DNA from: Hoplostethus atlanticus
Taxonomy: Eukaryota; Chordata; Actinopteri; Trachichthyiformes; Trachichthyidae
Direction of reading: 5' to 3'
Assembly (NCBI GenBank): GCA_034670405.1
Contig: JAXDDX010000018.1
Coordinates: 5,177,501 to 5,241,500, forward strand
DNA: 64,000 nucleotides
Each line of letters opens with the position of its first letter. Position 1 is the first letter of the stretch. The notes beneath the pieces were generated by a model, which saw only the letters and a list, made by a program, of their open reading frames with translations, made no database searches and had not been told where the DNA came from. Of the stretch, positions 1,398-53,436 are shown in pieces. The position numbers were made by a program, and so were the translations under genes.

Positions 1398-1680
1398 TAA
1401 AGATGAAGTTTGAGTAAAATACAATCTGAAATCTCAAATATGCCATTTTGTCTATTAAGGCAATTTAGCCCTAATGAAACAAAGAGAGATGAATACTTTT
1501 ACAAACTAGATTTTTACTGTTAGTTTAAATTTATATCTTTAAATTCCCAGAATATCCTTCTCAGCTGAAGAATCTTAGATCTAACAAACAATGACAAATA
1601 ATGGCATTTGTGCCGTATGTGTGCAAACAAAATCTGTGCAAATTCTGAATGATATGGGATGTCCATGCCTCTGTGTGCAG

Positions 1681-4600
1681 AAGGGGATGTGATGGTGCCA
1701 ACTGTGCCCTCTGGATGCCAGCCTGTCCCTAGGGGGGGGAAGGTATCTGAGCTCAGCGAAGAGGACGTGTCTGTGTCCTACATGGGGGACGAACTAGACC
1801 TGAAGACAGTGGGGGACATCATCGCCATCATTGAGGATAAGGTGCAAAAAGACAAAAAGTACTTTGTAAGAGTATTTTCTCAGTGCTGAGATCAGTTTTG
1901 GATAAACTAAATCATGACATAGTGTGTAAAACACCTGCTTGTGGTGTTAAGGTGTAGAGTCAGATCTCTCCTTCCACAGGGGGATGAGAACGCGGAGGCT
2001 TTGGATGCCGCTGCAGTAGAGGCTGCTCTGTCCCTGTGTGAGGAGAATGGCCATGCCCTGTCTAGTGCCTGGGAAGTTGGGCCTTTCAAGCCCCATGAGT
2101 CAAACACTGTAGTGCCCACAGGAGTCCCACGCCCCTCATCTCTTCACAGTAGCCTGGTGGGGAAGACAGAAGTGGTGGAAATTCAGGGTGGGAGTTCAGC
2201 TCCACTCTCCTCTCCACGCAATAGTCAGGATAACTGTCTCTCAGCATTCCCTGTGGGACTAAGGGGCCTTCCTCCCACCTCCTCATCCTCATGCAGCTCA
2301 AGGATTTTGGAGCACTCCCAAACTGGAGCCCCTCCACAGCCTGAGGCAAAGGGAGAAACTGGAGAGGAGGTGCATCAGGAAAGCCAAATTTCATTGGACG
2401 TTACCATAAAGTGTGAGAGTGAGAACTGGGCACAGCAAACACCCGATAAACCCCATGGAGGTATGCGCATCCATGCAAAAATACTCGTATTCACTTGCTT
2501 CAAAACATGCAGTTTGCATGCAACTATGCATTTTGCATAACCATTTCCTTCTTATTATTCATCTTTACTATCTTGGCAGACTCAGTATTAGAAGATAGCC
2601 CACTGACAGAAAGGCACCCCAAGGTACACCACCCAATGAGGACAGAGCTAACATGATGCCTGTAATTGCTGTACTGAATTGCAGTGTGTGTGTAGCTCCA
2701 CAGCTTCCCTGCACAGTAAGCGCCATTAGAATCTCTCTGCGTCTTTCTCCGTCTTTGCAGGAGATGAAGGCAGAGGACGGGGTAAGTGTTGGGGAAGGGG
2801 AGAATGTCTCAGGGACTAAAGAGGACATGGAGGGGAATGGGCCAGAAGTGTGCGGCGGAGGAGAAGAGGAGGGGGACGGGGCAGAGGGATTCCTGTCGGA
2901 GCCAGACGGGGAGGCGGAGCTAGAGCCTCCGGCTAGCGAGAGTGAGGATGGATACAGCCTCCACACAGCTTCCTCGTCTCTGCAGCTCCACACAACTGTG
3001 GACTCGATCCCCAGCAGCCCTGCCTCGTCTCAGTTGTGAGTAGCACACACTGATGCACACACAGCAGGAAACGCAAGGGAGAAACGGTGGTGGAGTCACT
3101 AATGTCATCGTTATGACATTACGTAAGCACATGTTTTTCATATTAGTTGTCACGTGGCGACATTCATTTCTCACCGTGGCATGCTGCAGTTCTGGTTCTC
3201 CTTGATTATACTTCCCTTGTCACTTCTTGAGAAACACACAACCTCTGACTTGTTTTAACCTCCTTGATAAACACACAACCTCTGACTTGTTTTAACCTCC
3301 TTGATAAACACACAACCTCTAACTTGTTTTAACCTCCTTGATAAACACACAACCTCTAACTTGTTTTAACCTTCTTGAGAAACACACAACCTCTAAGTTG
3401 TTTTAACCTCCTTGATAAACACACAACCTCTAACTTGTTTTAACCTTCTTGAGAAACACACAACCTCTAAGTTGTTTTAACCTCCTTGATAAACACACAA
3501 CCTCTAACTTGTTTTAACCTTCTTGAGAAACACACAACCTCTAAGTTGTTTTAACCTCCTTGATAAACACACACAACCTCTAAGTTGTTTTAACCTCCTT
3601 GATAAACACACAACCTCTAAGTTGTTTTAACCTCCTTGATAAACATACAACCTCTGACTTGTTTTAACCTCCTTGATAAACACACAACCTCTAACTTGTT
3701 TTAACCTCCTTGATAAACACACAACCTCTAACTTGTTTTAACCTCCTTGATAAACACACAACCTCTAAGTTGTTTTAACCTCCTTGATAAACACACAACC
3801 TCTAAGTTGTTTTAACCTCCTTGATAAACACACAACCTCTAAGTTGTTTTAACCTCCTTGATAAACACACAAACCTCTAAGTTGTTTTAACCTCCTTGAT
3901 AAACACACAAACCTCTAAGTTGTTTTAACCTCCTTGATAAACACACAAACCTCTAAGTTGTTTTAACCTCCTTGATAAACACACAACCTCTAACTTGTTT
4001 TAACCTTCTTGAGAAACACACAACCTCTAACTTGTTTTAACCTCCTTGATAAACACACAACCTCTAAGTTGTTTTAACCTCCTTGATAAACACACAACCT
4101 CTAAGTTGTTTTAACCTCCTTGATAAACACACAACCTCTAAGTTGTTTTAACCTCCTTGATAAACACACAAACCTCTAAGTTGTTTTAACCTCCTTGATA
4201 AACACACAAACCTCTAAGTTGTTTTAACCTCCTTGATAAACACACAAACCTCTAAGTTGTTTTAACCTCCTTGATAAACACACAACCTCTAACTTGTTTT
4301 AACCTTCTTGAGAAACACACAACCTCTAACTTGTTTTAACCTCCTTGATAAACACACAACCTCTAACTTGTTTTAACCTTCTTGAGAAACACACAACCTC
4401 TAACTTGTTTTAACCTTCTTGAGAAACACACAACCTCTAACTTGTTTTAACCTTCTTGAGAAACACACAACCTCTGACTTGTTTTAACATCCATTCCTTG
4501 TTTTTGTGTTTTATTTGAATCTTTTCATCACTCTTCTGCAGTTCTGTGTCCAGTGAGGACCAGGAAGCTATACAGGCCCAAAAGATCTGGAAGAAAGCCA

Positions 4601-7277
4601 TTATGCTGGTGTGGCGTGCAGCGGCCAATCACAGGTTTGACTCCTTAACAACACAAATCTCGCCAGTGATCCTCCGACAGCTTAGTGTTTCACTTCTTTT
4701 AACCACCAGATCTTATTTTGGAAAACCTGTTGTAGGTATGCCAATGTGTTCTTGCAGCCAGTAACAGATGAAATTGCGCCAGGGTACCACAGTATCGTGC
4801 ACAGGTATGGATGCGTTGTGGTCATACTTTGTGTTAGCTATAGCACGTTTCCATTAATAGTTTTCCTAGTGGTCAGTTGTCATGTACAATCAAGCATCCT
4901 GGTCCATGACTCTCCATCAGCTCATCAAGTTCTACACATCTCATATCCCTCTTATTTTTATGCTTCCTCTCCTCGCACAACAATGGTCTCGGCTGTCTCT
5001 TCATAACTCCAACCCCCCCCCCCCCCCACTTTCTCCTCGCCCCACCCCTATTTCCAGGCCTATGGACCTGTCCACCATTAAAAAGAACATAGAGACTGGT
5101 TTGGTACGAACTACCGCTGAGTTCCAGAGGGACATCATGCTGATGTTTCAGAACGCCGTCATGTACAACAGCTTGGACCACGACGTGTTCCACATGGCTC
5201 TGGAGATGCAGCGGGACGTCCTCGAGCAGATCCAGCAGTTTCTGGCCACCCAGCTCATCATGCAGACGTCTGAGTCTGGCATCAGCGCCAAGAGCCTGAG
5301 GGGCCGCGAGAGCACGCGCAAGCAGGACTCCACTGACAAGGTGCTTCACTAGAATTTTTGCAGAGAGTAAAGAGAGGACGGGTGAAAAAGGAGATTAGGG
5401 TGAGATGATAGACTATCGCGAAGGTGAACAAGAGTGGTAGTTGATGCAGTTGTTTTTTCCCCCCCTCCCCAAATCTGGAATATGGTAACCCTATGAATGG
5501 AGTATAGTGTGCAGAGTCAAACAAAACCCTCATGTCAAGTTTATTTTTTAATAAATCTTACATTCGGTGTGGAATTTGCTGTACACATTGTTTTTGTGCA
5601 CCTTTGGCCTCAGGACTAGGGCAGTTATACACCTTTCTTATCTCTGTGCTCACGTCACTCTCTTCTGTGTCTGCTAAGAGTTCACTGTAGAAGAAAAAAG
5701 ACCACGTTCATACAGCTACAGGAGGTTGTTGAAATACCCCCCCCCCACACACCAGCTGTACTTGATTTCTCATTCAAGTTATTCATACTTCACGAGAAAA
5801 TAGAGCGTATTTTAGTAAGTATGAACAAAATGATATCTGAAGACACTTTCAAGTCATCATTTTGCACATAATACACCATAATGATTCATTCAGTATTTCT
5901 ACAAATGGTAAAGTATCTCATTACTGTACTCCTACATTACTGAAAACATGTTTATACATGAATCATTATTATATATCTTACAGTATTATTGACTTCTGGC
6001 TGTGTATGTTCAATTTGTGTGGAGGTAAACGAAGGTTGTGCATGCATACATATTTGCACACGCACAGAAACTCAAGACCCAAGCTGTTATCATTAGTAAC
6101 TTGTATGCTCAACAGATAGTATCGGGCCTGTGAGATAACAAACAGATTCCTGCGGTTTGTCCTGCTGTAAGCTCGGAAATCCAAAACAACAGTCACGCTC
6201 TTCACTTGTACAGTGGTGGTTACATCTATCTTCCTTTACTACCGAAGGGTTGAAATCACTTTGTGGGCGGAGAAACGGCCATAACAGCAGTGCAGTGAGG
6301 AAGTAAAAAGTGAAACCTCTACAATGGCTACATCTGCTGGCCTGTATAGCAATTAATGGAGAAATGTGCAGTGGAAGTAGTGCTCATGATGAAGAGGTTT
6401 ATTGTTAGATACTTTGATACGTCTGGTCCTCTCTGATGAATGTGTGAGTTGTATTTGGGTTCTGGACAGTAACCCTTCATTTCAGTCTGTTATTTTACTT
6501 TCTCTCTAGTCTTCCGTCTGCCCCTCTTTTGAGTCCTGGCTTGCTTTCTGACTGTTGTTTGTCCTCTCACAGGACAGTGTCTCCATGGCCTCCCCTGCCT
6601 TCCTTCTTTCTCTTTTTGTAAGTACCCATCCTACAGCCTTCTCCCTGAAGAACTTTCCCTCTCTTCCACAATTTGTCTGTGTTTTTCTTCTTGAAGCATG
6701 CATTGAGTATTTCAGAGCTATGTCCCGGGTGTTTCAGAAGTAGGTGCACTATTTTTGATAATAATAATAATGAAAAACAAAGTTGTGTAATTCTAGTACT
6801 TTTAAACGTATTCAGTCATTTTAACAATAATATAATTATATACATAATTAAATATTAAATTCATTGTTGCATATTAAACATTAGGTGTGTATTAACACAA
6901 ATTATGGAATAATGTATACAAAATCTATACCTACTTTTGAAAGGGGCTGTATATGAAGAACAAAACTCATGATCTCATGAGCCAAAACAAAATATGAGAA
7001 TCAGCTTGGCTGATTTCAGCAATAGTAGGTGATATGTGAAAGTACAATGTGAAGCATTTCATAGGTAGTATATATAGTTTTAATTTGTATTTCAATCAAG
7101 TAGTAAGCAATAAGTAGTAGTAAGTAAGTAGCAAGTAAGTAATACTATCAGTTCAGTTACAAAAGTGGATACTAACTCTGGTCTAATAGACGTTTCTCGC
7201 TCTGTTTGGCTGTACAGGATGGGGGCACCAGAGGGCGCCGTTGTGCCATTGAAGCTGACCTAAAGATGAAGAAATGA
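1681..7277 (+). CDS. brd8: brd8, bromodomain-containing protein 8 (3' part, 9 exons)
   Basis: Subunit of the nuclear NuA4/TIP60 histone acetyltransferase complex that reads acetyl-lysine. Exons inferred from GT/AG sites and phase: 1681-1841, 1980-2460, 2580-2623, 2761-3035, 4542-4634, 4736-4804, 5058-5340, 6573-6617, 7218-7277. They join without a stop into 502 residues. The first exon carries the BRD8-specific block TVGDIIAIIEDK, followed by AAVEAALSLCEEN. The middle is acidic and Glu/Ser-rich (PPASESEDGYSLH, DSIPSSPASSQF). Then comes the bromodomain, and a terminal tail ending IEADLKMKK and TGA. Agreement with human BRD8 as I recall it is close in every exon. The N-terminal SANT/coiled-coil half is not in the window. 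The ATG at 1659 is intronic and is not a start. The gene is convergent with dnajc18. Confidence 0.95.
3222..4490. repeat. 37-bp minisatellite (about 34 copies) filling a brd8 intron
   Basis: The unit is TTGATAAACACACAACCTCT followed by AACTTGTTTTAACCTCC, 37 bp, repeated without interruption. Variants are GATAAAC/GAGAAAC, CTAAC/CTAAG/CTGAC and an inserted A (ACACAAACC, 38 bp). It takes up most of the 1.5-kb intron between the exons ending at 3035 and starting at 4542. The three consecutive 38-bp units at about 3861 recur at about 4160, so an eight-unit block of 299 bp was itself duplicated. Confidence 0.97.
4542..5340 (+). other. brd8: Bromodomain-coding exons of brd8
   Basis: Three exons encode the four-helix acetyl-lysine reader: EAIQAQKIWKKAIMLVWRAA (helix Z), the ZA loop with FLQPVTDEIAPGYHSIV and RPMDLSTIKKNI, then FQRDIMLMFQNAVMYNS with the expected acetyl-lysine-anchoring Asn in MYNS, and a final helix through LEQIQQFLATQLI. 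All intron boundaries fall in the same phase (AG|G or AG|T), as expected for this gene. No key residue is missing, so the domain should be functional. Confidence 0.93.
6573..7277 (+). other. brd8: Last two coding exons of brd8 (alternative-type C-terminus)
   Basis: Two short exons (6573-6617, 45 nt; 7218-7277, 60 nt with stop) encode DSVSMASPAFLLSLF and DGGTRGRRCAIEADLKMKK. Both have clean acceptors (CACAG, TACAG) and a GTAAGT donor on the first. They match the C-terminus of the BRD8 isoform that ends in this basic tail. If the preceding exon is not spliced, reading runs past 5340 through GTG CTT CAC to TAG at 5350. That would give a shorter isoform ending just after the bromodomain. Confidence 0.88.
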
Positions 7278-8779: not shown

Positions 8780-9172
8780 TCTTCTCAGATTTGAATTTTG
8801 AAAGCACTACCATTCAAAATGCTCATCTGAAATTAACAATTGGCCACATTGTTAAATGTAAAGTAGTCCCATTTTTCTATATTTTCTTCCATTGTGTGTT
8901 TTGGAGGTAGAACACTTTCCATACCCAACTGCTTTGCTGAAATGTATATTTTATTGTATTTGTACGTTTTTCCATTTTTATATTTGAGTACAGGCTAATA
9001 CTGTAACATGATAAATATGTTACAACAGGTACAGGTGTAAGTAACAGAGAATGAAGACGGCACCAGCCTGATATGGTATTTATAATATGGCATGTTTTCA
9101 GAGCACATCAGTGTATAATTGGTTCTCAGAAAGATCTATTCTTTCTATTCTTAAGATTCAAATCTGAGAAGA
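8780..9172. repeat. Inverted-repeat pair, possible degraded MITE
   Basis: TCTTCTCAGATTTGAAT at 8780-8796 is the exact reverse complement of 9156-9172, with weaker similarity beyond the core. The 360 bp between them are AT-rich with no open frame of interest. A non-autonomous DNA transposon is the simplest reading, but no target duplication is clear. Confidence 0.5.
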
Positions 9173-11429
9173 CAACGTGGTTTTGAATGTCATGTTTTTG
9201 TTCTTGCATTTGGTGTTCTTGTACTTAGTTTTGAGAAAAGGGGGTAGTTTCAGAAAACGTGTAAACAATTGAGAAAAACGAATCACTTTGAAATAAACAC
9301 AAAGAACTTGAATGACTGATAAACTAGCCTGACATTGTGGGCGGTGCAAATTAATTAGACACAGAGTCAATAGGAGACAGTAAAAATGACTTCTACTTCT
9401 ATCAGGTACAATAATGTTCCCCATCACGAGCTGAGTAAGTGCAGCAATTGCACACACCACTAATATGGCTCTGTCTGACCCACATCTTTCATATGCTGGC
9501 TTTATTATCTGACCAAAGGATGAGGCATTCAAAGATTAAAACCACCAGTAGACAAATTTCTTTATTTGGAAAATGAATCATAGACAGGCCAAAACATGTT
9601 CTGGCAACATCTTTCATTTTCTGGGTTTCTAGGCTTAAAAGCCATGAAATTTGAATTCTGCAGTGTTATGCCACTGAAAACCAAAAGTTTTAGAAGTTTG
9701 TACGATTCTGTTTGGGCCTTATTATTTGAAAGTGGCAGTTAAATGCACATTTTCATTGTGCAGAAATACTCTAATGAACATTTAGTGTGTAAAACCTGGA
9801 TATGAAGGTGTGATTGCCAACAATAAATATGTAAGTACATACTTGAGCTTCTCACTAGGGTGCATGCAATAGTGAGTAGGGGTATGTATGACACAGGATT
9901 GAAATACTGAAGTAAAACTCAAAAGTGCTTGAGGTGACCCTGAACAATTAAATAGTATGACAACAGCTAAGGCAGTTTGGCAAAGTATTAGTGCACAGCA
10001 GAAAGTATTGGGGTTGGTAAAAAGGTAAAAGCTCTCACAATCTACAAGTCCACAAAGTTTGTGTCCCATTCATGACATGACAGGTAACAGTCACGGTTCT
10101 CTGGAGTCTAGGTTTGGGAGAAAGTTGTTCATGTCCACAAATATTTAAACAGACTTTCTAAGATCTATTTGTTTCTAATGTAACATTTGTTACCTCGGGT
10201 TAAAGTTTGGATTTTCCCTTTAAAAACAAAAAGTGTCAGTTTATAAAATATCCATATTAATTAAATGTGCAGGCTTTATGAAGAGGGCTGAAAACTATTT
10301 TTCTGATGAAAAAAAATCTATGTTGTGAATGAGGAAATTAAGGTTCTGCATGTCATTTTTCAGACAAAGGTTTTTTTTAGTCTTATTAACTTGCACTGGC
10401 ATCGCTAACAAGCACTAACAAGCTTCCAACATCAAACCAGGAACACTGAGGCAAAGTGTTTTTTGGTTGAAATGGAATCCCTCTTTGTGACAAATCAGAC
10501 TGACTTCTTTAAGTAACACTCATAAAATGCCAACATATGCCTACAGCTGAACACTGGCTACTGGCAGAAAGTTTAACTGTATGACCTGTGCAATGTTAAA
10601 ATGTTCATGCAAGCAAAAGGATGGGGGAGGTGTGAAACTCTTCTGTAGGAGAGAGAGAGCTTATTTTTGGCAAGCGAAACCAAAAAAACAAAAAAAAAAC
10701 AAGCACATTACTCAGAAAAATGTTGGTAACATTTCCAACTCCACGGTGCCTCCTATTGCAGTAGGTCAATTGCCTAATAAACTACAGTATATATTCTATA
10801 GTTCTGTTTCTTTTCCATCTCTGATCGGCCTTAATCATAATTAAAGGTCCTGTCATTTCACAGTACAGAAGCTCTCAGTTTAGTTTTGTTTAAAGATTAT
10901 AGTAGAATGAACATCACAGTACCGAAACTTCCTACAGAAAAAGATAAAAATGCTTGCTACATTCACTCCATAGTCCTATTAAATAAATACACTAGAATTA
11001 GAATGAGGACACAAAACAAATAAATTAATACAGGTAAACCACAACTACTAACAACAGAACTGATAGAACATGTATGTGTGAACATACACTTGCCTTCATA
11101 ACCTCTGGCAGGGGAAACCCCAAACCATGTCTTGCCATTTCTATAAGAAAGTTTAAAGGCTCCGGGACGTCCTACAACACGTCCGCAGCGAGTCTGCACG
11201 CCATGTCGCGGTCAACACACAGCCAGGGCTGGCAGCTCACACGCAGCTCTATTCTCTTCCATCCAAGAGAGAAGGCCCATTGTTTCCAGCGGCATCATCT
11301 GCCACCGTGCTCTACCAAGAGACATTTCTTTACAAAGTGGCCGGATTAAATAAATTAAAACAATTCTATAAACTATAGTAGAGTTCGAGATAAATCTAGA
11401 AAGAAATGCCGCCTCCTCTCAGGCGCTCC

Positions 11430-14400
11430 TCATTCGCCCCTCTGTCGCCCGACGAAACGATGCAGCTTGTCACAATTGTCCAGCCTCATAGACTCTGCCT
11501 TCTGCTTTAACCTTTCATCCCGGTACAGTTGCCCAAGGTTTGCCAGATCCGACTCTGAAAGGGAGAACGGAACGACAGAGAGAGAGAAAAACGGATTTAT
11601 TTGCAAGATATTTACATTTGTGACCTAAGCGATGTTTCTCAGTAAAGGTTATCCATTATCCAAATAGTCTACTCTATTCTGGAGCTCAGATTTATCCAAG
11701 TCTGACACCTTCCCTGTAACTCCAACCATAATCCATCCATGTTGTTGTGCTAGTAAGCCAAGTAAGCAGTTTACTTTGCTGTTTCTCCTTCCAGCAGCTG
11801 TTGTGCAGGTGGTCGATATAGTCAGTTTCAATGGTTTTCTCCAGCTCCTCCAGGGCGTCTCCGCGGTATTCCTTCTGAAAACTTTTATCCACATAGTACG
11901 GTACGCCCATTTGCTGCGTCTCCCTGGACACCACCAGCCCCATGGCCCTGAAAACCAAATACATCATCTAAATGTATCGATTGTGCACTTGGTGGGATGC
12001 AGCTTTGTTTCATTTCAAAGTTTCATTTCAAAGCCAGTGCTCCTGTTAGGCTGAAGGTGTCAAGACTCACGGTTTGTAGAAGAGACTGTACGGTGGGTTG
12101 GTGGCCATCATCTGAGTAAACACTGAAATTAAGATGAGCATCAGCACAGGAAGAAGCTGCAGGAGGGCTGTGAAGGTGTTCTGTGGAAAGATGAAATCAC
12201 AACAGGTTAGAAAAACACAATATATGTTGGCCATAACTGATAATGCAAAAATGATAAACAATCCATGGCGGCCTGCAGCCCTCTTTAAAAGGCACCCCTG
12301 AAACTACCTGCTTTCTTGCTTTCCAGTAGCGCTCATAATGCCATAATACTATGTAGAGCTTGCCATTTAGAATACCACACCTACAAAAGGAACATCGTGG
12401 TGTGAAATTATGGGTGTTTAAGGGGGATTTGCCTTCATGATCAGTGAGTCACCGACCTGACTGCGGTTTTCCTCCACCTCCTCATCGCGCCTCTCATAAG
12501 CACGCCGACGGCGAGGCTGGTAGAACTGAGTGTAGGAGGCTCCTCGGTTGGTGTACACATGGATATTGCCTGGAGGGAGACATTACACGGTTCTACAGTA
12601 CCTACACTTGCTGTAAATAACAATTTATCTTAGTAAGCCCCGATGGAACCGAAAACACTCACACTAAACGACCGCTTACCTGTGGGAAACCTTCCTCCAA
12701 AGAAAATGTTGAACAGCTCTTCAGGGGAAATGTCAGCCTCAAAGTCTCTGTTGAAGCTGCGGTAGTGTCCGTGGCGCCCTTGGGTGGAGTGTTGGGGTGC
12801 ATTCCCAGCAAGTTGCTCTCCATACTGATCATACTGCAGCCTCTTCTCAGGGTTGCTGAGCACTGCATATGCATTGCCTATTGCTGTTGAGAGAAGAGGG
12901 AAACGTTTTGTCTTTGTGTCCTTGTGTGCAAAGTAAAAAGGTATCAGGATGAATTGAGTTGCACGAGGGAATCAGCCGAAGTATATCTACACTGCTTATT
13001 ACAGAATTTCAGCACTTTTCATGTTAAACTCATTCTCAAAGTCTGTTATCACTACAATGTAGCCTACAGTGGTTGAAGCCCTCTGTTGGCAAGCATCTGC
13101 CCTGTGGAAGTGTGCTTGAGCTACTGCAGAGGCGCTGTTCTGTAGCTGAGCCTGGCGGTATTTGAGATGAGGACTAGTAAACTTTCAATTTTCCAAGGTT
13201 CCATGACATTTTATTAATTTTCAATAATTGGGAAACTAATTTATTTTTAGGTTTTCCAGGACAACTGAGCACCCTGTTATCAAGACTGGAAAGGACTTTG
13301 GTGAGTGTACCCTTTGATTCAGAACTGTCTGTGCACCAAAACTGCACATCAGTACTCAGAAACTTCAGCAAATTCATATTGGATTAAATTGATATTTCAA
13401 AATAACACATCTTGAAAGTCATAGGTATTTTACAAAAGTATTATTGCACATTGCATGCATGCCATTTGTATTGTATCTACTATAAAACAGTGTTCTAATT
13501 TGGCTGTTCTAATAAAAAAGAAAAATTTGTTAATATCTGGTTTGGAGAAACAGAACAAAGCTGAAACATCCTCCTGTACCTTTGAATGCATCAGTTGCTC
13601 CTGGAGCAAAGTTCTTGTCAGGGTGGAACTTAAGTGCCAACTTCCTGTATGCCTTCTTCAGATCTTCATCACTGCCATTTTTGTTAATTCCAAGGATCTC
13701 ATAAAAGTCTTTACAATTCTTTATCCTGCAAGATCACAGCAAAACACATGTCAAAATATACACCTGAACAGAAAAGTTACCAGCAGTACTATGCCGAAGC
13801 AATATGAGGTTATAAAGTGCGCTAAAGTGAGTGGATACTCTTGACACAACAGTTTGTGTCAATGGCTACATTTACTAGCTGTTCTTAACCTGGTTACTCA
13901 GGTAATCTGGTTTTGGGTTGGCACGTGTAAATTTCACAACTAGGCTAGAATAACCTGGTTATTCTCATACCTGGCTAGTGTGGCTTGCAATCATCTTACT
14001 CCTTTCACTTTTGGCTTTTGCCACCTGTGCAAACTCAGACGGAATCAAAGGCATGTAAACAGCTTAACCCAAATAAAACCTTAACTGGAGAATGGCAAAT
14101 AGCCAGGTTACTCTGTGCATGTAAACATAGCTACTGTTAAAAGATGAAGAACAGTGGCAGTCAACTATCTGTTGTTGTAGAATTGTGTGAAACACGTGTC
14201 AAGAGAAAGAGTGTCACTGTGCACCTAAGAACGCCCTGGCGCTGATCCTCTGTGTAGCTCTTCTTTTCCTCACCACTCGCACTACTCCCTTCATCGTTGC
14301 TTCCAAAATCCTCGTCTCGCCAGCCGGTTGGTGGGGGTACATGGTTTGCTCCTGGAGCTGCAGTGCTTCCATTCCTTATTATGGCATCAATCAGCACTAG

Positions 14401-15727
14401 AGGAAAGCAGGGTCTGAGGTCAACTGAGAATTGAGGTGTGGCTAGGAAAGAATATGAGTGGCTTCCAGATGAAAAAGGTTTTGGCCTTTTCAAGTAAAAG
14501 CACTTCATGTATTTTTCCCCATGCTGTGGATTTTGTGTCTCACTTCAAGGTCAGGCCATCTCCTTTTGAACCAGGGGTAGGACCTATCTAGTTTCAATGA
14601 CAACTCATGTAGTTATGTCAACTAACCAACTACTTTAAGAATACCAAGATGCAAGAATACCAAGACTAAATTCACAGCGCTTTTATTGTGTAAACAAAAA
14701 CCATGCAACCCCTGCACAGCGCAGGTTACAGATGACTTAATCTTTCCCTAGCTATCTTAATAACATAGACAGTGAATTAACATTACTATTTCTATTCTCA
14801 ACTAGTGCAGGGATACTAAAGTAGCTTGGCCCGGGGCCAATTTCCACATGGAAATGGGGGGCATTACCAATGCTGATAAACTGAAAACGTATTTTTGCTT
14901 TCAAGTTTATTTCACACATTTCATTCTAATAATTATAACTTCCTTATGGTACATTGGGCCAATGCACTACTGGTCACCACCACATTGCGCTCTCTACACA
15001 GCATGCATAGCTGCAACCATAGAATATGCCACACTAGTTCAACACAGATAGCTACTGAACACTCAATATTTAATATCTACTGTCCATCCTAAGTCTGAGA
15101 GCCTGTTACCTTGCACAATGAGTCAGTACTGACACAACTGACCCCAGGCCGTCTGCCATTATCCTGGGTCCCAGGCTATGCTACTTGAGTGTCAAAGACA
15201 GTTGCCTGAGGTCCGGCCATAATCACCAAAATCGGGCTGTTGCAAAGCACGAGTGCACCGATTTACCAAATGATGTCGTAACCCCCTAACCCTATGTAAA
15301 GCAACAATACAGAAATACAGTCAGGTTTTAACACAGCGCTATCCTACAGTCCGCGGTGCTGTCAGTGAACTGCAGGGAAGGTAGCCCAAAACAACCTGAA
15401 TTTTTAGCTTTAACGTTAGCTTCAGACACAAAAAAACACACACACTAATGAAGCTGGAACAAATTCGTTTCCACCTGTAAAGAGCAACTCTGTATCATCT
15501 ACTTGAGAAACTGATAATTCCTCTTCTTAAATTTGGGGTTAGGCTAGCTACCCACCGTTAGTCAGACAACCACTGCACAATTTGTGTCAGCTAATTTTAC
15601 CTCTGGCCCGGGTGCTGGGGAAAATGTTCTGAGCTTCGTATAGCAGATGCAATGCCCTTTCTTTCCGTCCGGACCGCAAACATAGCTTTGCCTTCTCTAT
15701 CAACCGGTCTGATTCTTCTTTATCCAT
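11430..15727 (-). CDS. dnajc18: dnajc18, J-domain co-chaperone of the ER membrane
   Basis: Hsp40 family member that recruits Hsp70; the DNAJB12/B14/C18 group are single-pass ER-membrane proteins with a cytosolic J domain. Coding exons, 5' to 3': 15727-15601, 14396-14225, 13725-13580, 12883-12680, 12569-12457, 12180-12071, 11947-11775, 11554-11430. All junctions keep phase and give 389 residues. The J domain runs from about 105 to 170 with HPD at 134-136. A G/F-poor linker contains [19 protein letters not shown] membrane segment lies near 257-279 ([20 protein letters not shown]), followed by the DUF1977 tail ([27 protein letters not shown]). The tail [12 protein letters not shown] matches DNAJC18 rather than DNAJB12/14. 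The N-terminus resembles DNAJB12/14 instead, see findings. ATG 15727 is the only start opening this frame. Confidence 0.94.
13863..14134. mobile_element. MITE in dnajc18 intron 2
   Basis: The left end contains GGCTACATTTACTAGC followed by TTAACCTGGTTACTCAGG. The right end, reverse-complemented, reads GTAGCTATGTTTACATGCAC followed by AGAGTAACCTGGCT. The inverted ends are imperfect but clear. Inside are further AACCTGGTTATTC words, typical of the abundant fish MITEs with GTTTACATGCAC ends. It fills most of the 500-bp intron between exons 2 and 3. Superfamily is not certain. Confidence 0.65.
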
Positions 15728-16250
15728 TTTAACGTAACGGTGTTACTTTGCTGATCCAAAGGCTGGCTGCTTAGTTCGGTCCCTGTGCAGTGTGCGTCAA
15801 TATCATATGGCAAGACAGCCGTCTGTAGCTAGGTAAGTTAGCCAGTTAGCTTTGATTACAGCGGAAGGAACGACAGATAAAGACAGCTGCGTTACCGTTA
15901 GCTAGCTAGCTAACGTTGTATGTGTAAGCCAGCAATCACTCAAAATCTTTCGCACTATCCGGTCAGCCAACGATGACGTTTGCTGTCAGGCTGCAGACAG
16001 ACTTGAGGATGGGCCATTTTTATTAGCCGCGGGAAAAACAAAATGGATCGCGTTTTCCTTTCCGTTTTTTAATATCGTTACAGGGGACACCTTGCTAAAG
16101 AACTCTTCAGCTGTGACGTCATATCCGGCGGCGCAAGCCTCAAAAACCTTTGCTACGATGCTAATGATTTCAGAAGTTTCGCGACTTACAGGTTTCGTTT
16201 GTAAATTAAACAGACAATCGTGATTACAGACAATCGTGATTGTTCGTCAA
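15728..16250 (-). promoter_or_regulatory. Upstream region of dnajc18 with CRE palindrome
   Basis: CpG dinucleotides are denser here than in the surrounding AT-rich DNA. A perfect cAMP-response element TGACGTCA sits at 16114-16121, directly followed by ATATCCGGCGG, which contains an ETS-like CCGG core. A second TGACG half-site lies near 15973. No TATA box is obvious, as expected for a broadly expressed gene. Transcription start is not determinable. A 16-bp direct duplication containing ACAATCGTGATT lies at 16211-16243. Confidence 0.5.
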
Positions 16251-16480
16251 CATGTTATTTAATGGACTGTCTGCTTGTACAAATACCATTGTTTCCCTTT
16301 ACCTTGTTGGCCTTGGAGGCTGGCTAGCAGATATATGGAGAAGGGAATGATGGACATTGTTAAAGGGCTCTACAGAAGCTCTTACCTCCGAGCTTGGGGT
16401 CAGGAATGAACAAACAAACTGGACACTACAGCAAAACATTTTATGGCCATAGTGGTTTGAAATCAAGTATATTTGTTCCA

Positions 16481-17045
16481 GTCTAAAGTGTGGACACACC
16501 TGACTGTATGTAGTTTCTTAGACAATAGTGAAGTTGATGCCTGTGTAGGAATTTATTTCCAAAACAAAAAAAATAATTAAATGCACCCCCAAGTAATTTT
16601 CATTTAGAACTTGAAATTTAGAGGTGGAGAATAGTAAGTTAGTTAATTTGTGGAATTTATTTGCGTGTTAATGCCTAATGATAATCAGTTGTGTTGTGAC
16701 AAGGTATGGTGGGTCTTAAATAGCCCTATTTGGTAGAAGGCCATCTTTTCTGGTTGTAGTAGTCCCTAATATGCAGTGCAGTGGCAAAAACCTTAAAGCG
16801 CTATGATGAAACAGGCTCTCATGAGGATTACCACAGGAAAGGCAGACCATGAGTTACCGCTGCGGTAACTTGAGTTCAAGCAGCAGACACATCTCAACAT
16901 CAACTGTTCAGAGAAGACTGCGTGAATCAGACCTTCATGATAGAATTGCTGCAAAGACACCACTATTATGAAGAATAAGAAGAAATAAGAAGAAGACACT
17001 TGCTTGGGCCAAGGAACCTTGGTGTGTCCAAACTTTTTACTTTAG
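16481..17045 (+). mobile_element. Decayed Tc1-like transposon remnant
   Basis: The left end CTAAAGTGTGGACACACCT and the right end GGTGTGTCCAAACTTTTTAC followed by TTTAG are inverted copies. Near 16800-17010 the plus strand, read with frameshifts, gives transposase-like pieces: TGSHEDYHRKGRP, then STVQRRLRESDLHDRIAAK, then LAWAKE, the helix-turn-helix and spacer of Tc1 transposases. Stops and indels break the frame and most of the catalytic domain is gone, so it is dead. Confidence 0.8.
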
Positions 17046-17099
17046 TGTGTGTATATATATATATATATGTTTACATTATTTTATCATCATTTTATCATT

Positions 17100-17132
<33 letters not shown>
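17046..17132. repeat. AT dinucleotide and TTA trinucleotide microsatellites
   Basis: A short GTGTATATATATATAT run at about 17048-17068 is followed by about ten uninterrupted TTA units at 17101-17132. They directly abut the right end of the Tc1 remnant. Confidence 0.9.
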
Positions 17133-17133
<1 letters not shown>

Positions 17134-19847
17134 GTAGTAGTAAAATAAATAGTAAATTATTATAACAAACAATCAGCTATAAGGGCAGGATAGAAGGATG
17201 ACCCCATAGATAAAAAATAAATACAAACTTGAAAACATTCAGAAACTATATTGGACTCCAAACAAGCAAACTAATAGAACAATTACAGCATAATGATAGT
17301 TATCAGTTTCAATTTTTTAAAGTGAATACAGTTTGATAATCACATTTCTCCAGGCAGGTTGTTCTAAGGTGTAGGTTTAAGTTCTGTGTAAGTTTATTCT
17401 GGAAGCCAGTGTAAAATAACTAAAACATGAGCAATCGCCATATTTAACTGAAAACATGCCTTTGTGTAAGCCATACAAATTTAGTTATAAAGCGTGTCAT
17501 ACATTGTTTGCTATCAACATTATTTTTGTAATTATGTTTGGTCATCATGTTTGTTCATAATTATGTTTGAATCATCAACTATCTTAAATATCTTGAGGCA
17601 GTAGATATTGGTGCCACCTCTTAACTTCAGGTATCCATTAGGCAGCCTCAGTGCTCTGTTGAACAAAACATGTCTGATTGAAATGAAGCTAGTGCGACAT
17701 TTCAATCATGGAGACTTCTGTTAGACCATGGTGTGTATAATAAAGGTTTCCCTGAGCAAAACAACATGTTATTAAACTGAAACCAGTGTTTCACGGTTTA
17801 GTGTCCATTACCAAAGTATCACACTTTTAATGTTATTTAATCAAATGTGATGGAGAGAATGTTCTGCCTTTCTTTGACAATTCAAAATATCCAAAATATC
17901 TCCAATAATCTGATGAACAAAACCCTCAAAGGTATTAACCCCTACTAGGTGAAGAAGGCAGGGTCTACATGTTACACTGTCCTTTAATTCACATGTATTA
18001 AAAACTATCTGGATGTAAATAGAGGTTACAAATTCTTTAATTGTTCCTATCAACAAGAAAGTATGCGGCACCATTTTTGTTCATGCATATTTTATTCAAG
18101 AGTAAAAAAATGTGATTTGTCCCATAGGGCATGCTTACAATGTGTTTATCATTTAGGAAGTCAAATGCCAAAATCTATTTTAAGAGATTATAATATGAAA
18201 AAAATGTTGCAAGATAAAATCCATGATATTTGTTTTTTGAAATATGCATGTAGACCATACAAGAACCAGAAAACAGTGGAAGGAAAATCATAAGCTAAAT
18301 TGTAACAATAATAAGAATATCAGCAATAACTATAATCAGAATATAATGTTTCCTTTGAAAAGTAAGTGAGACACATGATTTTCATTGTGTCCAATTTGTT
18401 TACATCTGAAAACCATGCTATCATGCTTTGGCAGCCTGAATGTTGCTTTTCACTGAGATTATGTTCATTCACACTATTGAACATCTTCTGTACATCAATA
18501 GAACAGAAAAAAACACAAGGCTTCACACCTTAGAAGGGCATCTCTGCATACAACAAAACAATATAAAAATAAAAGCAGTGGTAATAAATAAAATAATGAA
18601 AAAAATGGACAAGAACAAATGAAGCCATAAAAATATGTATAAAAACAAGACAAATATAACTTTACAAATATAATTCAAAAAGAAAATAATTCAAGTTTAC
18701 TATTTTGAAAACACAATTATCACAATTAAAATCTCACATAACAATTAGGAACTTAATTGCATGCATTGATGCGTTCCATGTCGTATAGATGAAAATCACT
18801 GTTGCTGTTTTTGTCCATCCTTATAATTAACATACTTATATGATTAAATAGAAAGATGGGAATATAAAGTACAAAAAAGTATTCATATATGAAAGGAAAT
18901 TCTAAAAATGTATGCAATAGTGTCACTTGAGCTCGTTGATTCACAGGTACATATTTTCCAAGATTTCATATCATATGTGACTCAATCCTCTTCAAGGTTC
19001 TAGTAATGGATTTTGAAAATCATTTCCTGTTGGGAACCAAAATATTTCCTGTTTTAATTCCATATCTCTTGCTATATTAAGCCAGTAAGGCTATTTTAGG
19101 ATGTAGGTGGAGTCTTCATTGGCATACTCAGACCAGTGTGAATATGGGAATCTTATTGAGGTTTCAGGGGAAAACAAATATCCACTCCCCAAATATTAGT
19201 GAGAAAATAGGGAGGGTAGTTTTCAGGGATTTTTCTTTCTCATCCTGTTTCTCCATTGACTTCCATATTGAAATTAAGTGTACTTAAAAGCTAGGGAGGA
19301 GGATGATTATCAGGGATAGTACTTGGACACCATCCATAAGGTACCACCTATTCCACACTGTGTTCAAGTATTATAAAGAGAGTCCACCCTACAGCCTAAA
19401 ATTCAATTTAGATATATTGAAGGGAACTCATATCCGATTTATGCTCAGTAGACATAGTAGTAGGCATAGTTAGAACAACATTGTTCAAAACCCCTAAGTA
19501 CATTGCAGGCTAAGGAGGAAGTCCTAGTATCACAAGATATGAAACATGGGGCAAATTTCCAATCTGAGCCCGTCAAGCCCAAACGACACAATGGGTGGTG
19601 ATGGGTTACTTTTTAAATGACATATTTAGGTTGTATGCATTCACAAATTTGTAGAATTTCTTTCTTACTTTGTACTCTGCGTCATAAATCCCACTCTGTG
19701 TGTCTTGAAACAATTTTGTAGCAAATGTGCAAAAACTCAAGGCAATAATGTATATTTGAGTGACTGCACATATATGAATGTATATATATATATTATTTCT
19801 CTTTAGTTACAAGCAGGTGAGAAATAATCAGGTAGTGTGTGACAGCA
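17133..19847. other. AT-rich spacer
   Basis: No exon, RNA gene or clear repeat family recognised. The open frames here are short, AT-driven and lack splice context. It belongs to the spacer between dnajc18 and the calcineurin gene. Confidence 0.6.
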
Positions 19848-20397
19848 GGGGTGCGTCCCAAAGCCCCGAATGACTCCTTCTTTCCTCTACTATCGTCTCT
19901 TTTCCTCTGCGATCCAGAAAGTGATGTTCACCGCTGCCTCGTCGCCTGCTCTCCCAGTGGCAGAAGAGACGAGAGAAGCTGCATTGCCTGAAGCCTCCTT
20001 CAGCGGAGGATGCTCAAGTGTATCCTCTCCAGAAAGTGAATTACATAATTGTCGGACGTGTGCCAAGTAAAGCTCAATCATATGCCATGCTTCTCAGAGG
20101 TAAAGTGATTAAACGATTAGTGGAGAGAAAAGAATAACTTTTAGGGTGATGCTGATAAAAATATAACCCTTTGAGATTCACTTACTTTGAAGTTGATGAC
20201 AAGTTACATCTTAAAACATAGTGAATAAGAAGCTCCTTTTTGGGGACGTTTTCTGATATTAGAGCTTCATGTTACATTTACGATGCTTCTCCTTCCCTCC
20301 CTTTCTTCCTTCATCACCTCCAAGTTCTTGGTAGCAGATGAGTGGTAATGAGGGACGAGAGGAAAGGAGCAGTAGTGGAAGGTTTTGGGACGCACCC
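19848..20397. mobile_element. 550-bp MITE with GGGTGCGTCCCAAA ends (hAT-like)
   Basis: GGGTGCGTCCCAAA at 19848-19861 is the exact reverse complement of 20384-20397. The subterminal parts also resemble each other in inverted orientation (CTCCTT, TTTCCTCT runs). Ends of this type are common on vertebrate hAT-group MITEs. I could not find an 8-bp target duplication, so the superfamily is tentative. It contains several short open frames with no family match. Confidence 0.75.
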
Positions 20398-21129
20398 AAG
20401 GTAAACTTAAATCTGAGATTGCAGTGGTTTTGGTGGATAGGCCACAGCCAAGCACACGTGAGCACCCTAATTCTCTTTCCCCTGCAGGATCATGGCATCT
20501 TACCACAAGATAAATCAATAAATTAAAGTCCTCTGGTAAGATTGCATTGCAAGTTGTAAGAGGTACACATTTTGCTTTTCAGTGTTTTTAACTTGTCATT
20601 TTTAATACTAGCAAAACATGTTGACAAACAAGATTTTTTTTCCTTATGAAGTGGATGTGTGAGTGACTCTTATTAAACTCTTAATAAAGTAGTAAAATGA
20701 TTTGTGTGGCATGGATACTGCAATTATGTCTTCTGTCAGTCCCTATAATGAAGGAGCAGACATTTGACAGCACTCAGAACTACACAAACCCCACCAATTC
20801 AGTCTGTAATTGAACTGAGAAAGGGAACGACAGGCACACACAGCTTTCAACCACACTCTTCCAGCCAAACAGGTTTCCCTGCAGCCTGCTGGCCTCTCCT
20901 TATCCCTGCCCTAAGCTCTGACACCAAGCTCCCCCCTCCCCCGCGTGTGCGGTGACATACTGTCATGAAATAAATTACCTTTTCACCCATTTGAGATTTG
21001 CTGCAGATTTCATGTTCTGTCTGTGGGCCTGTTTTATTTCTGTCTATGTTCTGAGGCCTGATTTCAGGATTTGGCAATGTCTTGCTGCACAGTGCAACAG
21101 TGGCACGGTTTCGAGACTGAGACAGCACA

Positions 21130-43278
<22,149 letters not shown>

Positions 43279-47952: not shown

Positions 47953-49975
47953 GTACGTTTTAACTCATTAATCAGATCACTTTTAGGTCCTCCCAGCAAT
48001 CAGAGGGGTTGGAGGTCCATTTAGCTTAATGGCTGTGAGTCTGGTGTATCTCCTTTGTGGGTCACTCTCTCAGGGATCGGCTCTGGAGCAGCAGGGTTTG
48101 TTTGGTCTGATTTTTGGGTGCAGCTGAACTGTGGGCCCCTGACCCAAGCCCATTAGGCCTGTTCAATAATTTGGCCTTGTGAATAAGAATGGTGAATGAT
48201 TCTGCTTGAGCCACACTTGATATAAAGCCACATCAGGTGTCATGCAGACCACAATGTCTGCTATATTTGACCAATGACAGGGGCATGCTACTCCTTATTT
48301 GGGCCTAATACTGTAGAAATACATTTCACTGAAAAGTTTGGATGGTCAGTAAAGTAATGAATGATTAATATATACCATCATATGATTACATTTTCATTTT
48401 AGAGATTTCCTGATTGTTGTTCCCTCTGGTGTTTTAACTCTTTTGCTATTTTGATGTTCACATTCAAGATGTGTCAGTAACTATGACTGAATAATAGAAA
48501 AAACTTGAGGCCATTCAGACAATCAAAAACCTTATTTTGTTATTTTGTTAGAGTTTGAAGTACAATTCATGAGAGATCAGTATAAAACTTGCCACTAGAT
48601 GGAGCCCTACCACTGATTTTAACTGACAGCAACTGGTTTGCTGGTACTATTCACATGAATTTGCTACTTCACAGTTGAGAGACATGGTCATTTGAGCTGC
48701 ATCTTTAGTGGTAAAAACATGCTAAAAAGTTCTTCTGCGTCAAGGCAAGTGAACCAAATGCTACTGTCAGAGAAGAGGGTGAGCATGTGATAAGTGGTAA
48801 GCTGAATAATACATTTCTAGAAATGGAGCCAGTGTTGCTTGTCCAACAGAGGTCTACTGCAGCTTGGAGCTGTGAGGCTGACACAAGGTATGACTGACTT
48901 ATTCAGTGGGATGAGAAAACACACCACAAAATCCATAACACTTTAGGCTCTTTCAATTGATAGCAGAGTGTCCAATACCTTTCCTGAGCACATGTGGTAT
49001 GTCCTTGAAGTTGCCAATATTGCAGGGACAGATAAACCAGACTGGTGGTGAAAGCAGTGTGAAGGTAGACTGGAATTCTTGCTGGTACTCTTGTTCAGTA
49101 TTGTGGCCAAACCATATTTTATTAAGTACTGCACACAAACAATGTCATCTAACTAGCAAGTCTGCTTTACTGCCAAAACGTCTTCCATTGCTTTGAAAAG
49201 ACATATTCTTGGACTCTTAAACCTTAAGCGCTGACTGTCACATTTACAGATTGTTGTGGAGACTCATGTCAGGTGGTGCTCCAGTCGTTATAAGTGGCAG
49301 ATGGCCTCAAGGAGGCAATGTGTGTATGACTGGTTGGAAGCACCATGCTTGTGCTAACTGTTCAAACCAAATTCACTTAAAAAACCTCTCTGGGTCTAGT
49401 AATATAAAATCTTGTGGCACTGACCTGTTGGCAACCGTGCTCTTTGACACCTCCCATTAAATTTAGATGCTGTTTTTACTGGCATGCTCTGCTGGCACTA
49501 CAGTAGGAGAAAGTGGCACATAGAGGAAGTTCTATTCCAACATTATATACTGTGGCTTTAACCAGCTGTATGTGCCAACATAATTAACTAAGTGATTTAC
49601 TGACAGTCACGTTAACTGCATAAAATCACAGGCAAAATTGCACATCCACATGTTGCACAAAATTGCACATCCATTGCTAGTGGAAGCATTTCGCTAGCTG
49701 GTAGAAGATTCATTGTAGGTTCCCTGGTTTCCTGATAAATAAGTCATGTGATTTAAATACATTCAATTGTTTAATTTAGGTTTCACATATATTGTTATGA
49801 GTGGGCTTAATCCCTTGTTGTGGATGTGATGTTACCGTAGTAAATTTAAACTAGCTGTAATGTTGTTGTAGTAGTGAATTTTTATTATTATTTGATTTTA
49901 CTACTACTACTACACACCAGTGTATTTACCTGTGTAATTGTGGCTTAGTAGAAAAGAACGATTGGGAGCGTATCT
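47953..49975. other. Spacer, nothing identified
   Basis: Several open frames near 48950-49460 have nearby AG and GT dinucleotides but no coherent phase and no recognisable family. No RNA gene is seen. Confidence 0.5.
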
Positions 49976-50285
49976 ATGTTCCCAGGGTTCTATGTTCCCA
50001 GGGTTCTATGTTCCCAGGCCCCTACGTTCCCTCAATGTAATTGTATGTACCCAGGGTTCTATGTTTCCAGGGTCCTATGTTCCCAGGGTTCTATGTTTCC
50101 AGGGTCCTATGTTCCCAGGGCCCTAAGTTCCCTCAATTAAATTGTATGTACCCAGGGCCCTTTGTTCCCAGGGTTCTATGTTCCCAGGGCCCTTTGTTCC
50201 CAGGGTTCTATGTTCCCAGGGTTCTATGTTCCCAGGGTTCTATGTTCCCAGGGACCAATGTTCCCCGGTCTATGTTCCCACAGCT
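49976..50285. repeat. 16-bp minisatellite (TTCTATGTTCCCAGGG)
   Basis: Roughly 17 units of TTCTATGTTCCCAGGG, some diverged (TTTCCAGGGTCC, CCCTTTG). A longer interruption, TTCCCTCAATGTAATTGTAT, recurs about 101 bp later, giving a higher-order repeat. Because 16 is not a multiple of 3, all three plus-strand frames cycle through the same peptide (MFPGFYVPRVLCSQGS) and stay open. These open frames are by-products. Confidence 0.95.
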
Positions 50286-51950
50286 CTCCACATCCCATTG
50301 GGGTCATACAGGCACCAAAGGTCATACCTCCAATCACTCTTAAATGATAGCACATTTTACTCATTGAACACATCGGAATGACATTCAGTGGGAGAACTAG
50401 CAGGAAAAAATTGGCAAACTCTTTACCAATAGTTGCTAAATTTAATAAATTTCATGTTGAACAAAAGATTTCTGTATTTCATTATTTTGTTAAGATGAGT
50501 TTATTATTAATAATATGGTTACAAGGCTGTAAAGGCCATATTACTATATTGTAATAACCCTACCATAAGTGCTTGAGAATGCTCAACAAGACAGCAATGG
50601 TTCAGGACAAACATCATGTAGGTGTGTGTATTATTCAACCCCATACATGGAGTTGTTACACATTAATAGAAATGAATGCTAACTCACGTGTATATGTGGT
50701 TGTGTGCTTGTTACACTACATGGGTTAGTCCTACGTTAGCACATTTAACCTATACAAGTTCTACAACAAAGAATGAAATATGGGGAAATTGTATTTGACA
50801 TGCACTTTTAAATAGACCCTTTTAATGGAACACTCTTACCAGTCCAATTCTGCGATCTTTAGGCTCAATCGTAAAATGACAGATTTAGTTGTAAAGATAG
50901 TAGTAAAGATGTAATTCACAAATTTGTGCACTTTGAGAATAGGACATGTTAGGGTTGTTTGTTAAATGTGGGTTAAAGGTTCCACATGGGATTAGTTTAG
51001 GAGATGGGTTACGTTGAGGTACATATTGATGAGGGTTAGGGAATCAATGTTGTCAATAAGATGTCCTTATTGACAAGTATAGTAATTCAAAGCTCTTTGT
51101 TTGCACTGCTGGAGAAAGAGAAGAAAGAAAATCACTAAATTCAACTGCAAGTCGGGAGAGACACTGTAGAAATGAGAACAAGAAAATAACTTCATAGAAA
51201 TATGGGGGAGTGTTGAAAGTGAGCTGTTGTGTTCATTTGGTTTACAGGGCTTTGCAACATTCCTCAGTATCTGAGAAAGCGGATGTTCATCTCTTTCCTT
51301 GCTCCCTTTCATTCCTCACACGTCTTTTTGGGCTGTCTGTGGGGACTCTCCTATGGTGCTGGTCATGTGTGCAGCTGGAGATGGAGGATGTGCAACACTA
51401 ATCCTCCTCCTCAGCTCAGGAAAGTACCCTGCCTTGCTTTTGCAGAGTGAAAACAACAAAGAGCTGAGTGTGGCTGCAGCCTCCGGGGTTCAGTGCACCC
51501 ACCAGAACATGTCCAGAGTCACACTTTGCTGCTCCCTCCTACCCATCTACCCTTGCATGTCTCTTTCTCTCTTTGGCCCTCTCCTAAACCTACGACAGAC
51601 ATGTAGTATTGGAGGTTACAGTGTAATATGCCATCCCCAGTGGTTGTGGCCGAGGGCAGAGGTGGAGGACCTCAGAAGGTCAAAAGCCATAAGGTGTACA
51701 ACGCTAGAACAATGACAGTGAGTGTGGTCAGCCTGGGTATCGTAGAGGCTTGATTGTCCTGCATCATCTAAAAATGACTTATTGCAGTTACATAATAAAC
51801 AGACTAAGACCCTGCATGGAAATAAAAAAAATGTGAAAAAAAATTGAAGCTGAACAGAAACTTGAATCACTACTCTAAATGTAACGGAAAACAGATATTA
51901 TAAAGCCCCACATTTACTTTCAATATCTCTTTCTCTCTTAAAAGAGAGGC
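50286..51950. other. Spacer, no gene established
   Basis: AT-rich to about 51.2 kb, then a more mixed stretch to 51.75 kb with overlapping open frames (for example plus 51299-51715). The codon content and lack of consistent splice phase do not support a gene. Confidence 0.45.
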
Positions 51951-52075: not shown

Positions 52076-53436
52076 GTTTTATAATACATGTTAAATAAAA
52101 ACATTCGCTAGGGCTCTTTGGCTTGGGACAGTCCAGCATGGGCTAGTGAGGCCTATGCTTCAAAAAGAGCAAGAAGGATGAAATCAGTTTTGGGGCACGC
52201 TGAGTGATTTATAAACACCAAGAGTCTCGGGTAACACGTTACATGAACTCTGGTTTATAACCTTCATCACCTGAGCAACTGAGCAGCTTTGTAACAGCAA
52301 CATGGCAAATTCATGTATACAGATTTAATCCTTATGTCAGCTTTCATGAGATGTTCATGTAATGCTCAATTTGTGACATAGCAGTGGAGTATTATTTTAT
52401 TAGGTAGTTGGGATGAAGCACCTCAATAAGAGCTGGGCTCTGTTTGTTCATCAGTGTTGGCAGAGTCTGTGGCTGCGTCTGTGAGGATTTACGCACAGGA
52501 TTAGCTGAAGAGAAAAACTAGATGGCATTGAGATTGGACGTGCAAGCATGTGCATATTTATTGTCGCTCTTTGCCACTCTAATAATGTCCACTCCCTAAA
52601 CACCTAAAAAGCACTGGTGCACTTGTTAAAGCTACAATATGCAACTTATTGCCTTGCAGCAGCAAACAGTATTGTTAGTCCCGCCCTCCTCCTCCTCAGT
52701 TGGGCAAGTTCACGCCCCAAAACGTGTCACTCATCTTGATGATGTACCTGCCTTGAAATGGCATCTAGCCTGAGCTGAGGTAACCAGCATCTGCAGAGCC
52801 ACCACACATTTAAAATTAAAATGTAATTTATTTTTTTTAAAAAGCAGACAGTGAACACAGACAATCTGCAGTAAAAAAAAAACAATATCGAAGTTGACTC
52901 ATGTTTTAAACAGATCCACGTTTAGCTTCACTATTCTTTCTTTTCTTACTGCTTCACGGCGTTGTTGTCGCTGCTGTGCCGTCGCTCCATCACTTTTAAC
53001 TGAAAAACATACATAAACCATGAAAATGGATGTTGTGAACCATTTATCTAGCTTTTGTGAACATTATAAACACAGGTTTTACTGTGAATGAACGCAGCTC
53101 TAAATCACTGTAATTTCTCTAAATCAAATATTGTAGGCAGCTGGTTAAATAAATGTTTCGCTTCCTAAGTAAGTCTTTTCAAGATGTGATGCATGACTTC
53201 AGATTAGGAACCGTACGCAAACCAGTATGTGCTAAATGTCAAACTGTATGTGCATTAAGCAGCAGCAAGTCCTCACTTAAGTATGGGGAACATATTCTGA
53301 CCTACAATCACTTCCTTTTAGTTATTTGGGCGTTGTTAACACTAGGAATTTTTTTTTAACATCCATCCAAAATTCATAATGACTAGTAAAGCTTCAATAA
53401 ATGAACATGTAGTATGTTATAAGAACCTTATTAAGG

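Follow-up and report, generated by a model that had tools for sequence, protein, structure and literature searches.

The window analysed here, a 64,000-nucleotide stretch of the Hoplostethus atlanticus genome (contig C18, positions 5177501-5241500), carries an intact calcineurin A gene that is very probably a fourth member of the family (ppp3cd), sister to the three found in mammals, originating in the early vertebrate duplications, doubled together with its genomic block and lost in mammals. A fourth ancient calcineurin A near DNAJC18, lost in mammals, had been proposed in an earlier note on this sequence, and three results support the proposal. The best trees place the gene outside alpha, beta and gamma in a genome that also holds ppp3ca and two ppp3cc; a partner gene on contig C37 lies within a doubled 5q31-type block; and two sheep gene lists for the interval, in the portions available, are without PPP3C (PMC6568386, PMC11161479).

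According to the scenario that we favor, ppp3cd would have arisen when the vertebrate genome was first duplicated, together with PPP3CA, PPP3CB and PPP3CC, and would have kept its place in the 5q31-type block, flanked by DNAJC18/STING1 and UBE2D2/CXXC5. The gene and its block would then have doubled together, giving the copies on C18 and C37; the teleost duplication is the most likely occasion. In mammals the gene would have been lost. Since sampling consisted of this teleost and the human genes, we infer the early vertebrate origin and the mammalian loss, and likewise the dates of origin and of doubling. An origin of the family in vertebrate duplications conflicts with the dating given in the available part of PMC9857879, where PPP3CA and PPP3CB date to sponges and PPP3CC to molluscs.

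The calcineurin A gene and its neighbours in the window

On the minus strand of the window, six-frame motif searches and tblastn searches located a complete calcineurin A gene extending from 43278 to 21130, for which a hand-built model gives 13 coding exons. Exon 1 (43224-43278) begins with the ATG at 43278 and ends on a GT donor. It is followed by exon 2 (36936-37136, with APVT), exon 3 (34165-34289, with VCGDIHGQ and metal-binding residues), exon 4 (33446-33557, with CVLYLW), exon 5 (32377-32522), exon 6 (32126-32265), exon 7 (26774-26851), exon 8 (26561-26655) and exon 9 (24644-24769, with VGEK), all found by tblastn as well as in the gene model. Exon 10 (24387-24464) and exon 12 (23328-23425) come from the gene model, while exon 11 (23598-23682), which contains the calmodulin-binding region, and the last exon (21130-21308), with the autoinhibitory region and the stop at 21130-21132, were again obtained by both means. 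All internal boundaries are GT-AG and the predicted product of 505 amino acids is without internal stop. An optional in-frame exon 13 of 51 nt is proposed at 22786-22836 from splice sites and frame.

The metallophosphatase catalytic domain was recognised by Pfam (PF00149, 1.1e-40), and the calmodulin-binding and autoinhibitory segments are present in the gene model and the alignment. The six peptides quoted in the earlier note were all found in the window. In one 15-residue segment human alpha stands apart at some sites (S/A, N/T and L/M), and there the window gene matches beta, gamma and a fly sequence, so that these states look ancestral and changed in alpha. The possibility of a pseudogene was rejected on the intact model and the low dN between the C18 and C37 copies. 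Scans of viral and genome contigs detected no relatives, which is unsurprising for a gene of an animal; in one of them 16 stretches fitted a pattern without any being a relative. The NCBIfam matches were weak ones to bacterial phosphatases only, far under the cut-off, and Rfam gave no match at gathering scores.

The arrangement first described for this region is what is seen: calcineurin A and dnajc18 form a tandem on the minus strand, and the adjoining brd8 is on the plus strand. The dnajc18 gene adjoins ppp3c downstream, with outer match limits of 11436-14406 in tblastn searches against human references and a DUF1977 match at C18:5189249-5189431. Its J-domain exons alone fail to separate DNAJC18, DNAJB14 and DNAJB12. 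With the same references, identity in the last exon is 62.5% for human DNAJC18 versus 35% for DNAJB14, which rejects a misread DNAJB14, and the DNAJB12 query gave no match at this exon. The part of brd8 within the window, delimited by eye against human BRD8, extends from about 1653 to 6740, with bromodomain matches at 4555-5328 (Pfam bromodomain, 1.4e-14). A 37-bp minisatellite (34 copies, 96% match) occupies 3226-4492 between brd8 exons, and an open frame of 125 amino acids without Pfam match lies on the minus strand at 9161-9535, between brd8 and dnajc18.

In the roughly 20 kb upstream of the calcineurin gene (43300-64000), inspection by eye of open frames of at least 42 amino acids recognised no gene. 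A tandem array with 16-bp and 101-bp periods is found there at 49973-50280, and around it all three frames of the plus strand stay open at once over some 200 bases (50141-50340). Open frames at 53413-53769 and at 27540-28289 look by eye like retroelement pieces; the former gave only a sub-threshold Gag_p10 match in Pfam and the two frames of the latter gave none.

Five calcineurin A genes and a doubled 5q31-type block

The whole assembly (632,777,144 bases in 1,161 contigs) was searched with the window protein (best 85 of 97 candidates scored) and with human PPP3CB (best 82 of 103). Calcineurin A genes were found at five places, and the remaining matches, 33-68% identical, were taken as other phosphatases; as the best candidates only were scored, absence of a gene from these results is not proof. 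The five genes are one ppp3ca on C102, with alpha-only residues and an alpha tail, two ppp3cc on C55 and C77, with the gamma motif KINHP and a one-residue gap, and the pair formed by the window gene on C18 and its partner on C37. The exon plan of the pair is that of the other calcineurin A genes. The two copies are 96.9% identical in protein over trimmed columns, C37 being represented without its first and last exon. Their coding sequences are 85.3% identical, by which haplotype copies of a single locus were rejected. No ppp3cb was found among the scored candidates of either query, although two 10q22-type dnajb12-ddit4 pairs are present in the assembly. Exon 6 of the C102 ppp3ca shows an apparent GC donor in place of GT.

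The gene order around the two copies is that of one block doubled. On C18, brd8 on the plus strand (5182 kb) is followed by dnajc18 on the minus strand (5189 kb), ppp3c on the minus strand (5199-5221 kb), cxxc5 on the plus strand (5248 kb) and pura on the minus strand (5327 kb). On C37, the order is brd8 (plus, 3577 kb), sting1 (minus, 3590-3593 kb), ppp3c (minus, 3604-3617 kb), ube2d2 (plus, 3634-3639 kb), cxxc5 (plus, 3651 kb) and pura (minus, 3717 kb). Six of the 15 human 5q31 markers tried match within 150 kb of ppp3c on one or both contigs: BRD8, PURA and CXXC5 on both, DNAJC18 on C18, STING1 and UBE2D2 on C37. CDC23 is also on C18, about 430 kb away from ppp3c, and the other eight (ETF1, PAIP2, CTNNA1, SLC23A1, REEP2, ZMAT2, PFDN1 and HBEGF) match other contigs only.

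Some of these names depend on position. In the CXXC marker search (best 47 of 71 candidates scored) the fragment fits best a gene on C7 (94%, called cxxc4), then C18 (80%) and C37 (77%), and the genes on the latter two contigs, with open frames of 331 and 330 amino acids, are probably cxxc5, judging from rank, frame length and position. The ube2d2 gene was named from its position, the UBE2D fragment being unable to separate family members, and sting1 was identified from three exon matches of 38-61% identity.

dnajc18 was found on the C18 copy of the block only and sting1 on the C37 copy only, a pattern that resembles reciprocal loss. Given the C37 partner in the doubled block, ppp3c was there before the doubling and is no late arrival; its arrival after the doubling was rejected, both block copies carrying it.

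Compared with the available sheep list (PMC6568386), the block around the window gene is the Hsa5-type one of the Hsa4/5/8/10 paralogon. Markers of the other paralogon arms gave no match near the pair among the best 39 of 194 candidates scored; this search missed the C37 UBE2D gene that was found separately, and the missing CISD2 and NFKB1 rows are uninformative. In human, we assume DNAJB14 to be linked with PPP3CA and DNAJB12 with PPP3CB. In the present assembly, the 10q22-type neighbours dnajb12 and ddit4 adjoin each other on C44 and on C50, and neither C18 nor C37 has a match to them. The ppp3ca of C102 has a ddit4l-like gene (43%) at a distance of 22 kb, and dnajb14 is on C7 together with an mcub-like gene (49%); dnajb14 and ppp3ca are therefore apart in the assembly.

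TMEM173 is taken here as another name of STING1. In the portion of the sheep study available, the interval reads DNAJC18, TMEM173, ECSCR, UBE2D2, CXXC5, PSD2, NRG2 and PURA, with no PPP3C (PMC6568386), and the excerpt of a second sheep study gives the same eight genes in alphabetical order, again with no PPP3C (PMC11161479). The slot that ppp3c occupies in the fish, from STING1/ECSCR to UBE2D2, is thus empty in these sheep lists, which points to a loss in mammals.

Placement of the pair among calcineurin A genes

The vertebrate sequences of the trees were human PPP3CA, PPP3CB and PPP3CC and the five genes of this genome, beta being represented by the human gene alone; a fly sequence served as outgroup, and fungi in a separate rooting. 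Without outgroup, C18 and C37 form a clade (SH-aLRT/UFBoot 99.9/100), next to an alpha clade of human and C102 (98/98) and a gamma clade of human, C55 and C77 (98/98), and the split of beta and gamma from alpha and the pair is supported at 95.5/97. This split was the best unrooted one in all four models, and it stayed so in each of 11 subsets, although in one of these it was practically tied. Human PPP3CA, PPP3CB and PPP3CC are assumed to lie on 4q, 10q and 8p. In the part of PMC2453138 at hand, which does not have PPP3C among its families, the most frequent pairing for the Hsa4/5/8/10 paralogon is (Hsa8,Hsa10),(Hsa4,Hsa5). With that pairing and the assumed positions, alpha is the expected partner of a missing 5q member, which agrees with the tree.

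Rooting was unstable: with fungi the root came to lie within alpha at low support, whereas the fly took a position beside the pair (0/33). In the fly-rooted tree the pair stands outside both alpha (human and C102) and beta plus gamma, with an exclusion support of 32/51, and three arrangements that keep the pair separate are about equal. The arrangement (((pair,alpha),beta),gamma) had an AU value of 0.13-0.16. When residues were polarised by the fly sequence, none was common to the pair and alpha only, and five were common to the pair, alpha and beta and absent from gamma.

Of the alternatives, the one that survives best, unlikely as we consider it, is that the pair represents the ppp3cb of teleosts, which would have entered the 5q31-type block ahead of the doubling and would have human PPP3CB as its orthologue. 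It would account for the failure to find another ppp3cb among the candidates scored, and the window gene shares with PPP3CB residues such as IINEGAA and IHTLDDI. Placement of the pair with beta has an SH value of about 0.3 in the unrooted tests, one fly-rooted arrangement, ((alpha,(pair,beta)),gamma), reaches AU 0.06-0.10, and a zebrafish gene named ppp3cb exists (PMC10648238, in part). Against it, the unrooted AU test rejects the beta placement at p 0.022-0.030 (0.021-0.030 for the pair with gamma as a whole). Five residues derived in beta and gamma are absent from the pair, as is the polyproline N-terminus of PPP3CB from the window gene, and the tail is of the alpha type (NGTD...NIQ). The genomic block differs from that of human PPP3CB, and a moved gene would have needed to land beside dnajc18, the paralogue of dnajb12. 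When human gamma is left out, the AU value of the beta placement increases to 0.08, and when C102 is left out, to 0.05; the middle columns taken alone give 0.23 and the C-terminal third 0.42, the signal being mostly within the first 120 columns.

Very unlikely is an origin of the pair from PPP3CA alone, by duplication of this single gene into the 5q31-type block at a time preceding the divergence of fishes and tetrapods, in place of a whole-genome duplication. The pair is closest to alpha, with 90.6-90.8% identity to human alpha against 87.9-88.4% to human beta. Its slot, however, is situated in the expected member of the Hsa4/5/8/10 paralogon (PMC2453138, in the part at hand), and it shares the exon plan of the other genes.

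That the pair consists of diverged fish duplicates of ppp3ca is extremely unlikely. The window gene resembles PPP3CA in exon plan, catalytic core, calmodulin-binding and autoinhibitory regions, exon 2 motifs and C-terminus, being 90.6% identical to human alpha over trimmed columns, and placing the pair beside fish alpha yields AU 0.04-0.08 when the fly serves as outgroup. Unlike PPP3CA, it is without six alpha-only residues, has 12 private residues in common with C37 and has 5q31-type neighbours. The place of a fish alpha is filled by C102, where ppp3ca has all six residues and its ddit4l-like neighbour, and nesting of the pair inside alpha was rejected by the unrooted AU test (0.0003-0.03), with SH values of 0.13-0.21. 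Finally, ppp3cc duplicates can be set aside as practically nil: beyond family membership and shared exon phases nothing favors them, two ppp3cc already exist on C55 and C77, the window gene falls outside the gamma clade, and placing the pair within gamma, in either of two ways, gives AU values no higher than 0.0013 and SH values under 0.02, these being the only placements rejected by the unrooted SH test.

Taken as a fourth calcineurin A, the pair thus appears to branch outside alpha, beta and gamma, with moderate confidence as regards beta. Its separation from beta, and with the fly outgroup from fish alpha, leans on gene order and is likewise of moderate strength; by sequence the weaker point is beta more than alpha, and the doubled block provides the remaining weight.

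Predicted function, naming and significance

Calcineurin is the target of cyclosporin and FK506. In the alignment, all 18 functional residues considered are identical to human alpha in both copies; we take their roles to be in metal binding, catalysis, PxIxIT and LxVP docking and immunophilin-drug contact. Between C18 and C37, dN is 0.017-0.023 versus a dS of 1.1-1.3, which indicates strong constraint. As the residues checked for these roles are conserved, the sequence predicts an ordinary serine/threonine phosphatase, activated by calcium/calmodulin. It should associate with calcineurin B, dock its substrates through PxIxIT and LxVP motifs and be sensitive to block by FK506 and cyclosporin. 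The 12 residues private to the pair include R408K and V409M in the calmodulin-binding helix, and the optional exon 13 measures 51 and 48 nt in the pair, whereas that of C102 has 30 nt and the shortest form of that of C55 has 27 nt. These two substitutions and the longer optional exon suggest that activation may be tuned.

Calcineurin is described as a three-gene family (e.g. PMC9857879, in part). A fourth calcineurin A gene is not named in the titles and abstract openings among the literature matches listed, and searches for PPP3CD, ppp3cab, ppp3caa and calcineurin A delta found no literature match. PPP3C is also absent from the available portions of PMC3896409 and PMC3238295.

Zebrafish may offer a lead. 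Its chromosomes 14 and 21 are assumed to carry the 5q31-type duplicates, and the copy on Chr14 is presumably the gene named ppp3cb. An excerpt of a catfish study places zebrafish ppp3ca (ENSDARG00000004988) on Chr21 and a duplicate on Chr14 (PMC3691659), and the available part of another paper puts both ppp3ca and ppp3cb (ENSDARG00000025106) under human PPP3CA (PMC10648238). These two zebrafish genes, known here by name and chromosome only, may be the paralogue described above. We lean slightly towards the combined view that fishes keep a 2R calcineurin A lost by mammals and that zebrafish ppp3ca and ppp3cb are its two copies; if true, zebrafish ppp3ca work modelling human PPP3CA addresses a gene that is absent from humans.

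A fourth ancient gene in fish, if true, would complete the expected calcineurin A quartet and would set its mammalian loss at a defined place, from STING1/ECSCR to UBE2D2. It would also change the naming of fish calcineurin genes and their use as models of human PPP3CA disease.
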